Of a stretch of 64,000 bases of DNA, positions 16,391 through 18,479 are shown in pieces; the stretch's first letter is position 1; every line of letters starts with the position of its first letter. The position numbers and the translations under genes are program-made. Under the pieces are notes generated by a model that did not search any database, was not told the origin of the DNA, and saw nothing but the letters and a program-made list of their open reading frames with translations. The DNA lies in contig LT700187.1 in the NCBI GenBank assembly GCA_900155415.1, positions 558,001 to 622,000 on the forward strand. Reading direction: 5' to 3'. The stretch comes from Christensenella massiliensis (GTDB lineage: Bacteria > Bacillota > Clostridia > Christensenellales > Christensenellaceae).

Positions 16391-16442
16391 ATTATAGCCT
16401 CCCGGTTTAAAATTTGCAAATCGTGCCTATATAAGATATAGT
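16391..16442. promoter_or_regulatory. Divergent promoter pair sharing one palindromic -35 box
   Basis: TTGCAA at 16414-16419 is its own reverse complement. Seventeen bases to the left is a minus-strand TATAAT (16396-16391), serving the RluA-like gene. Seventeen bases to the right is TATAGT (16437-16442), serving the nitroreductase gene. Both promoters have ideal spacing, so polymerase binding in the two directions should be mutually exclusive. Confidence 0.7.
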
Positions 16443-16486: not shown

Positions 16487-17002
16487 ATGGAACGATTGAC
16501 TTGTGTTTTAGGGCGCAGGAGCGTCCGGAAATATACGGACGAGCCCGTGTCGAAAGAGCAGGAGGAGCTGCTCTTATCAGCAGGGTTCAGCGCCCCCAGC
16601 GCCCGGAATGCCCGGCCGTGGGAATTTATCGTCGTGCGTGACCGCGGGCGCCTTGCGGAGCTTTCCACCGTCCGGCAATATTGGGGCATGCTGAAAAACG
16701 CCGCTCTTTCCATTGTCGTATGCGCGAACCTCCGGGATTATCCCGGTACGCATAAGGACTTTTTTATTCAGGACTGCGCGGCGGCGACCCAGAACATTCT
16801 TGTCGCTGCCGAGGGAATAGGGCTCGGTGCGGTATGGCTCGGCTGCTATCCTACCGAGGAGGGGCCGGCGGGCGTTCGCCGTATCCTCGGTGTTCCGGAG
16901 GATATCATCCCGTTCAGCGTGATCTCGATAGGGCATCCTGCCGAGCATGCGAAGCCGCATCCCGAGATCGCAGTGGACCGCGTTCATCACGAACAATACT
17001 GA
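16487..17002 (+). CDS. Nitroreductase-family FMN oxidoreductase
   Basis: This 171-residue protein fits the small nitroreductase family. It has RRSVRKYTDEPVS at the N-terminus (FMN phosphate contact), APSARNARPWEFIVV at about 36-50, DCAAATQNILVAAEGIGLGAVWLG at about 97-120, and a C-terminal SVISIGHPAE. It likely reduces flavin, quinone or nitro substrates with NAD(P)H in the cytoplasm; the physiological substrate is unknown. GAGGAGG lies 8 bases before the ATG. It is followed by the hairpin at the padR promoter, which would terminate its transcript. Confidence 0.9.
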   Translation: MERLTCVLGRRSVRKYTDEPVSKEQEELLLSAGFSAPSARNARPWEFIVVRDRGRLAELSTVRQYWGMLKNAALSIVVCANLRDYPGTHKDFFIQDCAAATQNILVAAEGIGLGAVWLGCYPTEEGPAGVRRILGVPEDIIPFSVISIGHPAEHAKPHPEIAVDRVHHEQY

Positions 17003-17016
17003 TCGCCTGAAAGCGC

Positions 17017-17074
17017 TTGACATACCTTGGATATCTATGTATAATTCAAGCATAGATATCCAAGGTATTTTTTT
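17017..17074 (+). promoter_or_regulatory. padR promoter inside a perfect 18-bp inverted repeat that is also a terminator
   Basis: A consensus promoter, TTGACA (17017-17022) and TATAAT (17040-17045) with a 17-base spacer, is overlaid by an inverted repeat. The left arm, ATACCTTGGATATCTATG (17022-17039), and the right arm (17051-17068) are perfect complements around an 11-base loop containing the -10 box. The right arm runs into seven T residues (17068-17074). The repeat is a likely PadR operator. In transcripts arriving from the nitroreductase gene it would fold as an intrinsic terminator. Transcripts starting at this promoter lack the left arm and escape. Confidence 0.75.
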
Positions 17075-17103
17075 GTACAAGTCACGGAAAGAAATGATAT
17101 TCG

Positions 17104-17436
17104 ATGAAATTTGATAAAAGTATGACCTCAGTGGGTACATCCCTTCTGATCCTGCATCTGCTGGAAGTCCGGGATATGTATGGATATCAGATCATCAGCG
17201 AGCTTTCGGCCCAGTCGTGCAATGTATTCGAATTTCAGGAGGGCACCCTCTATCCGGTGCTGCATTCCATGCAGAAGGACGGCTATATCGATTCCTATGC
17301 TGTCAAGGCGGAAAACGGCCGCATGCGCAAATATTATAAGATCACGGAGCGCGGCAAAAGGCAGCTGCACACGAAAAAAAAGGAATGGCGGGCCTTTTCC
17401 GCGGCAATGGAACAGATGATAGGAGGCAGGGCGTGA
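17104..17436 (+). CDS. PadR-family transcriptional regulator
   Basis: This 110-residue winged-helix protein is typical of the PadR family. It has the N-terminal TSLLILHLLEVRDMYGYQI, the recognition segment FQEGTLYPVLHSMQKDGYI, and the wing KYYKITERGKRQL. PadR proteins usually repress their own operon and an associated membrane protein or exporter. The promoter directly upstream carries a perfect inverted repeat, supporting autoregulation. The stop overlaps the start of the membrane-protein gene by one base. The ribosome site before the ATG is weak (GGAAAG about 12 bases away). Confidence 0.93.
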   Translation: MKFDKSMTSVGTSLLILHLLEVRDMYGYQIISELSAQSCNVFEFQEGTLYPVLHSMQKDGYIDSYAVKAENGRMRKYYKITERGKRQLHTKKKEWRAFSAAMEQMIGGRA

Positions 17437-17966
17437 TGAAGCTGCAAAAGACCGCCTGCGATTACATCGACTCCGTATGCCGGAATATCCGTTCCCGGCG
17501 GGAACGCGAGCTGTTCCGCGCGGAGCTTTCGGATCACATCGAACAAAAAACGGCGGAGCTTATGCGCGGCGGGCGGGCGCAGGAGGAAGCTGAACGCGCG
17601 GCCGTCGAGAGCCTCGGCCCGGCGAAAACGATCTCGAAGGGCATGAATGCAGTCTACCGGCCGGCAGCGGTAAAGTATATCTTTCTTGCGACCACTCTGT
17701 TTCTCGCCTTTCTGAACGCCGCCCCGTGGCTTGCCTTTCTGTTCAATATCCCGAATATGCCGCTCGCGGTTTTTCCCGCTGAAGGCGATACTGCGGTCAT
17801 CGGCGGTGCGGACGGCCCAACGCGGATTTTCGTTTCCTCCGGAAGCTGGAGCATGATCTCTTTTATTCTTCCGCTCCTACTCGCCGTTTTCGCCTGCATC
17901 ACAGTCTGGCTTTTCCTTCGTCCAAAATTCGGCGGCAAAAACAACGATATGCATCCGCGCACCTGA
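17436..17966 (+). CDS. HAAS-domain membrane protein carrying an IGGADGPT motif
   Basis: This 176-residue protein has an N-terminal soluble helical region (about 1-75: YIDSVCRNI, LSDHIEQKTAEL, AVESLGPAKTIS) like the HAAS/DUF1700-type domains that accompany PadR regulators. A membrane helix follows at about 78-105, then an extracytoplasmic segment with VIGGADGPTRIFVSS and a second helix at about 140-163. The IGGADGPT motif is a hallmark of the beta subunit of Na+-translocating decarboxylases, yet the rest of that protein is absent. The ATG at 17436 has AGGAGG 8 bases upstream and is coupled to padR. Its function with PadR is unknown. Confidence 0.75.
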   Translation: MKLQKTACDYIDSVCRNIRSRRERELFRAELSDHIEQKTAELMRGGRAQEEAERAAVESLGPAKTISKGMNAVYRPAAVKYIFLATTLFLAFLNAAPWLAFLFNIPNMPLAVFPAEGDTAVIGGADGPTRIFVSSGSWSMISFILPLLLAVFACITVWLFLRPKFGGKNNDMHPRT

Positions 17967-17987
17967 CGGAAAGAAAAAAACGATCAT

Positions 17988-18401
17988 ATGAAAAAATTTC
18001 TTTTTCTACTTTGCTGTATCATTTGCGCCGTATTTCTTACAGCCGGCTGCGCGCCGTCTGTTTCCGCGACGCAGGCTTTGCCCGATATCACGCGGGAGAC
18101 AATCGGCGCATGGCCGGAAAACGAATATACGGAAAGTATTCCCCGGCCCGAGTACGGTACGCCTGATTTTATTCTTTCCGGGGAGTCGGACGGCTGCGAT
18201 TACTATTCCGTTTTTCTTTCCGGTATCACGCGGGAACAGGGAGAGCAGTATGTCAGCGCGCTCAAAGAGGCCGGGTTCCGCGAGATCGCGGCAGACAGCA
18301 ATCCCGCTTCGGCCGGTATTGTCTTGCGCAGGGATAACCTCCAGCTCGGCGTATCCATATCAGACGGAACGCTTGGACTTTATTTCGCATTCACATCCTG
18401 A
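17988..18401 (+). CDS. Small lipoprotein, unknown function
   Basis: This 137-residue protein has a lipoprotein signal peptide (MKKFLFLLCC then lipobox LTAGC, Cys near residue 21). The mature part of about 115 residues has alternating strands and a SGITREQGEQYVSALKEAGF segment, resembling small secreted Clostridial proteins that detect or bind at the cell surface. It lies 21 bases after the HAAS-like gene and is followed by a terminator, so it is probably the third gene of the PadR-controlled operon. No enzyme motif is seen. Confidence 0.75.
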   Translation: MKKFLFLLCCIICAVFLTAGCAPSVSATQALPDITRETIGAWPENEYTESIPRPEYGTPDFILSGESDGCDYYSVFLSGITREQGEQYVSALKEAGFREIAADSNPASAGIVLRRDNLQLGVSISDGTLGLYFAFTS

Positions 18402-18441: not shown

Positions 18442-18479
18442 AAAAAAACCGGGCGCTTCTCTGAACCGTCCGGTTTTTC
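18442..18479. terminator. Intrinsic terminator after the PadR operon
   Basis: AAAAACCGG pairs with CCGGTTTTT around a 20-base loop that can pair further (GG/CC). It is flanked by an A-tract and a T-tract, so it may act in both directions between the plus-strand lipoprotein gene and the minus-strand GNAT gene. Confidence 0.7.

Follow-up and report, generated by a model that had tools for sequence, protein, structure and literature searches.

In the gut bacterium Christensenella massiliensis, the DNA that separates a nitroreductase-family gene from the padR gene behind it is probably an autoregulated promoter of a padR-HAAS-lipoprotein operon, in which two operators for the PadR repressor would double as the terminator stem for nitroreductase RNA. 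We hold this reading, which is drawn from comparison of sequences, with moderate confidence. Two operators of about 21 bp would flank the −10 box, O1 lying in the promoter spacer and O2 over the start site, and PadR dimers on both would shut the promoter. RNA reading through from the nitroreductase gene would contain both arms of an inverted repeat, fold into an 18-bp hairpin and terminate at about 17068-17074, whereas RNA begun at about 17052 would start inside the right arm, could not form the hairpin because the left arm is missing, and should escape into padR. Whether the same DNA is read as a stop or not would therefore be set by where the RNA began. Moreover, since an upstream polymerase has to cross both operators and the promoter before the full hairpin has been made, it should disturb bound PadR or a bound polymerase, so that nitroreductase transcription would transiently clear the site before stopping. 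This consequence, which we infer from the geometry, was missing from the original prediction.

Architecture of the Promoter and Its Surroundings

The window, i.e., the whole stretch of 64,000 nucleotides that was analyzed and to which all positions refer unless a genome coordinate is given, belongs to a genome of 2.56 Mb in a single contig. From this genome 400 kb of stretches were taken as a sample, and the counts of repeats and gene ends given below cover 464 kb; the relatives compared at the padR locus are Christensenella species. The features of the site and of the neighboring genes are collected in Table 1.

Table 1. Features of the padR promoter region and the genes around it (positions in the window).
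Feature	Position	Strand	Evidence or remark
Weak promoter candidate of the nitroreductase gene	16414-16442		
Nitroreductase-family gene, upstream transcription unit	16487..17002	+	PF00881, E 1.4e-27
−35 box TTGACA of the padR promoter	17017-17022	+	invariant in 4 Christensenella
Left arm of the inverted repeat	17022-17039		
Putative operator O1, ATACCTTGGATATCTATGTAT	17022..17042	+	fills the spacer; first 18 bases form the left arm; spacer palindromy in 46 relatives
−10 box TATAAT	17040-17045	+	within the loop of the inverted repeat
Putative operator O2, inverted copy of O1	17048..17068	−	outer 18 bases form the right arm; 2 mismatches to the operator pattern
Right arm of the inverted repeat	17051-17068		
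T run (seven T's)	17068-17074		first T belongs to the right arm; completes a terminator-like hairpin on the plus strand
padR gene, PadR-family repressor	17104..17436	+	PF03551, E 1.1e-24
HAAS/permease-prefix membrane protein gene, partner of PadR	17436..17966	+	NF038403, 48 bits, cut-off 30
Predicted lipoprotein gene, last in the operon	17988..18401	+	signal peptide and lipobox (LTAGC) recognized by reading
G+C-rich terminator hairpin of the ordinary type, after the padR operon	18449..18473	+	d = +21.7

The consensus promoter reported by the original prediction is present as TTGACA and TATAAT separated by 17 bp, with 12 of 12 bases agreeing with the consensus. Likewise, the inverted repeat is a perfect one, its two 18-bp arms being 100% complementary and 11 nt apart, with the −10 box filling the first six of the 11 loop bases and seven T's at the end of the repeat. 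The statement that the promoter is nested in this repeat applies in part: the spacer, which is the left arm, and the −10 box lie inside, but the −35 box lies just outside and has only its last base in common with the left arm. Putative terminator and promoter DNA are shared between two genes of the same direction, with 17002 as the last position of the nitroreductase stop codon. The repeat is not a product of chance, since only 51 perfect repeats with arms of at least 12 bp (loop 3-20) occur in 464 kb of the genome and only four with arms of at least 18 bp. Perfect consensus promoters number 28 in the genome vs. 0-2 in a reversed control, and the padR promoter is the only one of the 28 that is overlapped by a terminator-scoring hairpin. 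Two of the consensus promoters (G000:C1:238491-238519, minus strand, and 2040868-2040896, plus strand) are the same as each other, flanking sequence included, and probably belong to a repeated or mobile element.

The padR product carries the PadR winged-helix domain (PF03551, 86.6 bits, cut-off 27) and also matches the PadR and LmrR structures. Subfamily 2 of the PadR proteins is marked by the motifs YGYE(I/L), EGTLYPxLxRLE, and G(P/R)RKYYx(L/I)TxxG and by a central Trp in the last helix (PMC3506622); their counterparts found here by reading are YGYQII, EGTLYPVLHSM, RMRKYYKITERG, and W95. The RLE part of the second motif is lost, and RKYY and W95 are invariant across the four species. The ATG of the HAAS gene overlaps the padR stop codon, and its product reaches 20 bits against PF22564, below the cut-off of 27; the predicted lipoprotein gave no family match in profile searches. 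Two of the five congeners searched (G001, G004) yielded no nitroreductase match at the cut-off used and no close padR match, and in both the flanking acetyltransferase and pseudouridine-synthase genes lie approximately 130-150 bp apart. The block from the nitroreductase gene to the lipoprotein gene (16487-18401) thus seems to come or go as one unit.

Two Probable Operators for a Likely Autoregulatory PadR

PadR relatives across Clostridia show the same layout, namely a consensus promoter with a palindrome of approximately 21 bp as its spacer and a second copy straddling the start site. In 46 of these loci, aligned on the −35 box, spacer palindromy is highest around a single centre, at base 15 counted from the −35 box (mean of 5.4 of 9 pairs vs. 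2.2-3.9 at neighboring centres), and each arm is therefore most likely one operator. The 18-bp repeat would accordingly be most likely composed of two operators, each with its own dyad and each taken by its own PadR dimer, and the long repeat between the arms most likely arises from two slightly asymmetric operator copies in inverted orientation (outer half ATACCTTG, inner half CTATGTAT). O2 overlaps the predicted start site at about 17052. Thus, the conserved layout upholds a PadR operator as originally proposed, and the single dimer on the long repeat probably gives way to two.

The arms have the form ATAC...GTAT, centred on 17032, and the operators of the family in the relatives are also mostly ATAC/ATAT...GTAT/ATAT. 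The ATGT-N8-10-ACAT operator of PadR subfamily 2 is absent from the site, which concerns the type of operator and not the membership of the protein in this subfamily. Genome-wide, O1 with no mismatch and O2 with two are among the best matches to the operator pattern, and only two other sites, one near a second padR gene (444117) and one at 2322950, reach two mismatches. No further operator for this PadR as good as O1 was found in the genome, and weak matches were no commoner than in the reversed control. Because O1 and O2 stand out in this way, PadR is likely a dedicated autoregulator. A palindrome of the same kind, TACATCGCCTGTCAATGTAT, also lies approximately 90 bp upstream of the start of the second padR gene (G000:C1:443743-444136, minus strand). 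The comparison across Clostridia supports the promoter and autoregulatory operator roles well.

Proposed Termination of Read-Through RNA

The hairpin of the read-through RNA scores d = +41.4 (d'Aubenton-Carafa formula) with dG −26.2 and is followed by seven U's. This places it within the top 20% of native gene ends, as 21 of 106 positive-scoring ends in 464 kb exceed this value. It agrees with an intrinsic (Rho-independent) terminator in being a stable hairpin directly followed by a U tract, but it does not have the G+C-rich stem typical of the genome, its stem being 33% G+C (6 of 18 pairs G-C) compared with a native 5th percentile of 48% and a median of 75%; at 18 pairs it is also long, the native median being 9. 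The hairpin scores on the plus strand only. All four Christensenella genomes carrying the locus score positive (d 41.4, 9.8, 28.2, and 19.0), and between the nitroreductase stop codon and padR none of the four contains another terminator candidate. Outside of the genus, nine of ten nitroreductase relatives checked have no terminator right after the stop codon, and often the next gene follows immediately, so that these loci say little about the padR site. The proposed asymmetry between the two kinds of RNA is borne out by sequence and folding: RNA with both arms folds at z = −7.3, whereas RNA from 17052 gives z −1.1 and does not contain the 18-bp hairpin.

Between the −35 box and the end of the right arm, an alignment of the four species shows 44 invariant columns out of 52. 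Four further columns, every one of them T, come directly after and are likewise fixed, so that the first five T's of the run do not vary, and of the 14 leader columns that follow none is invariant. This contrast has a probability of 1/3060 by arrangement, neighboring columns not being independent. Variation in the arms is confined to pairs 9 and 11-13 and consists of one compensated G-C/A-T change, one G-U, and three mismatches. Two of the four species have mismatches in the middle of the hairpin arms, so strict pairing is not maintained, and the pattern of variation is more like that of operator half-sites whose centre is free than that of a hairpin strictly constrained by pairing.

An association with the neighboring gene was seen among 47 loci with a clear operator repeat, in which an upstream gene was counted as close if a co-directional open frame ended at most 60 nt from the −35 box. 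Where such a close gene lies upstream, 12 of 15 operator hairpins score as terminators, vs. 8 of 32 elsewhere (Fisher p = 0.0006; thresholds picked after the data were seen, genes called as simple open frames). Collapsed to clusters at 65% PadR identity, the counts are 5/8 vs. 2/17 (p = 0.017), and without Christensenella the p-values are 0.0095 and, collapsed, 0.038; the collapsed significance vanishes at stricter d cut-offs. Where a close co-directional gene has no separate terminator, the operator is positive in 10 of 11 loci, two of the ten positives being marginal (L068, d = 2.4; L045, d = 1.2), and the one exception, L015, has no terminator of either kind. The upstream genes are unrelated to one another and include those for the nitroreductase, an FkbM methyltransferase, a sodium:alanine symporter, and a possible DNA methylase.

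In the rumen Clostridia L069, L073, L074, and L087, the operator repeat lies just downstream of the −10 box, approximately 80 bp before padR. Here, directly after an FkbM methyltransferase gene, a T run is found between ribosome site and start codon. We had considered this clade as independent proof and downgraded it, since its T run also serves as a translation spacer and persists where a terminator is not needed: L088, for which no close co-directional gene was called, and L081, which has a terminator of its own, still keep it. The T's of the clade may simply be a ribosome-site spacer.

Regarding the dual role put forward originally, the terminator half draws on the d score, the strand specificity, the conservation of the T run, and the association across species. 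These give the terminator role moderate support, short of proof.

Alternative Explanations

The site might serve as operator and promoter only, in which case the hairpin would be an inevitable by-product of two adjacent palindromic operators, the T run would be incidental, and the nitroreductase gene and padR would form one operon. We regard this as a possible but rather unlikely explanation. It would account for the fact that most operators of the family have no T run, for the position of the variation in the middle of the arms, which is that of protein half-sites with a free centre, and for the apparent gain or loss of the block from nitroreductase to lipoprotein gene as one unit. It leaves unexplained why the T's beyond the operator are invariant in four species next to a variable leader, why the d score is in the range of real terminators, and why operators resembling terminators tend to be found where a co-directional gene ends close upstream.

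The high terminator score would suit a true terminator that the promoter merely overlaps, PadR being bound elsewhere and the repeat being no operator. The same palindromes, however, surround PadR promoters that have no T runs and those with divergent upstream genes, and 44 of 52 columns are invariant at this site, whereas the arms of ordinary terminators show no base-for-base conservation; we therefore rate this explanation as highly improbable. Slighter still is the chance that the perfect repeat works by forming a cruciform in the DNA or, at the RNA level, as an attenuator in the padR leader. Extrusion is conceivable for a perfect repeat of such length whose loop is rich in A+T, but no cruciform-specific feature is present; the padR RNA has no left arm with which to attenuate, and an Rfam search returned only weak sub-threshold microRNA matches such as any perfect hairpin gives.

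Relation to Known Systems and Implications

The preferred reading of paired operators doubling as a terminator stem has precedents for its parts. In Salmonella, the terminator of one operon overlaps the promoter of the next at tufB-secE and related sites (Brandis, Cao and Hughes 2019, via PMC7055797), and here, too, a terminator of the upstream unit would overlap the promoter of a co-directional unit behind it. In contrast to that system, as described in the citing paper, detailed geometry aside, the terminator stem here would be the operator pair of a repressor, with the −10 box in the hairpin loop. LmrR of Lactococcus lactis, a small repressor of the PadR family, acts on its own promoter, and two dimers were suggested for it (PMC4534193), which provides a precedent for both features; its operator motif is ATGT/ACAT (PMC3506622) rather than ATAC...GTAT, and the passages concerned in the LmrR account contain no terminator role. 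The Listeria PadR repressors LftR, LltR, and LstR repress their own genes (PMC6624303), and as in these systems and in the HAAS-PadR dyad (PMC11237479), padR adjoins a gene for a HAAS-type membrane protein, although the partner here consists of a short membrane protein and a lipoprotein. The word terminator does not occur in the Listeria paper (PMC6624303). Thus, terminator-promoter overlap, autoregulation by two PadR dimers, and the HAAS-PadR pair are already known. In the openly licensed literature we found no description of the same two arms as both operators and terminator stem around a −10 box in the loop, nor, the tufB-secE overlap excepted, of a promoter inside its own operator/terminator hairpin. 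Overall, the sequence makes a solid case for the promoter and the operator and a moderate one for the terminator.

Tentatively, and with more doubt than confidence, PadR-HAAS cassettes in general may use such a recurrent self-insulating promoter, whose operators would act as a terminator stem against incoming transcription only. Gain or loss of the T run would then tune it to the neighbor, and an incoming polymerase would sweep PadR off, coupling the neighbor to the regulator. If the proposed mechanism is true, a single pair of DNA arms has three functions, and one and the same sequence would or would not terminate according solely to the place where RNA synthesis started. It would represent a compact, testable design to insulate a regulated promoter from its upstream neighbor, and it would provide a rule open to checking in many genomes, namely that a PadR operator is followed by a T run where the end of a co-directional gene lies immediately before it.
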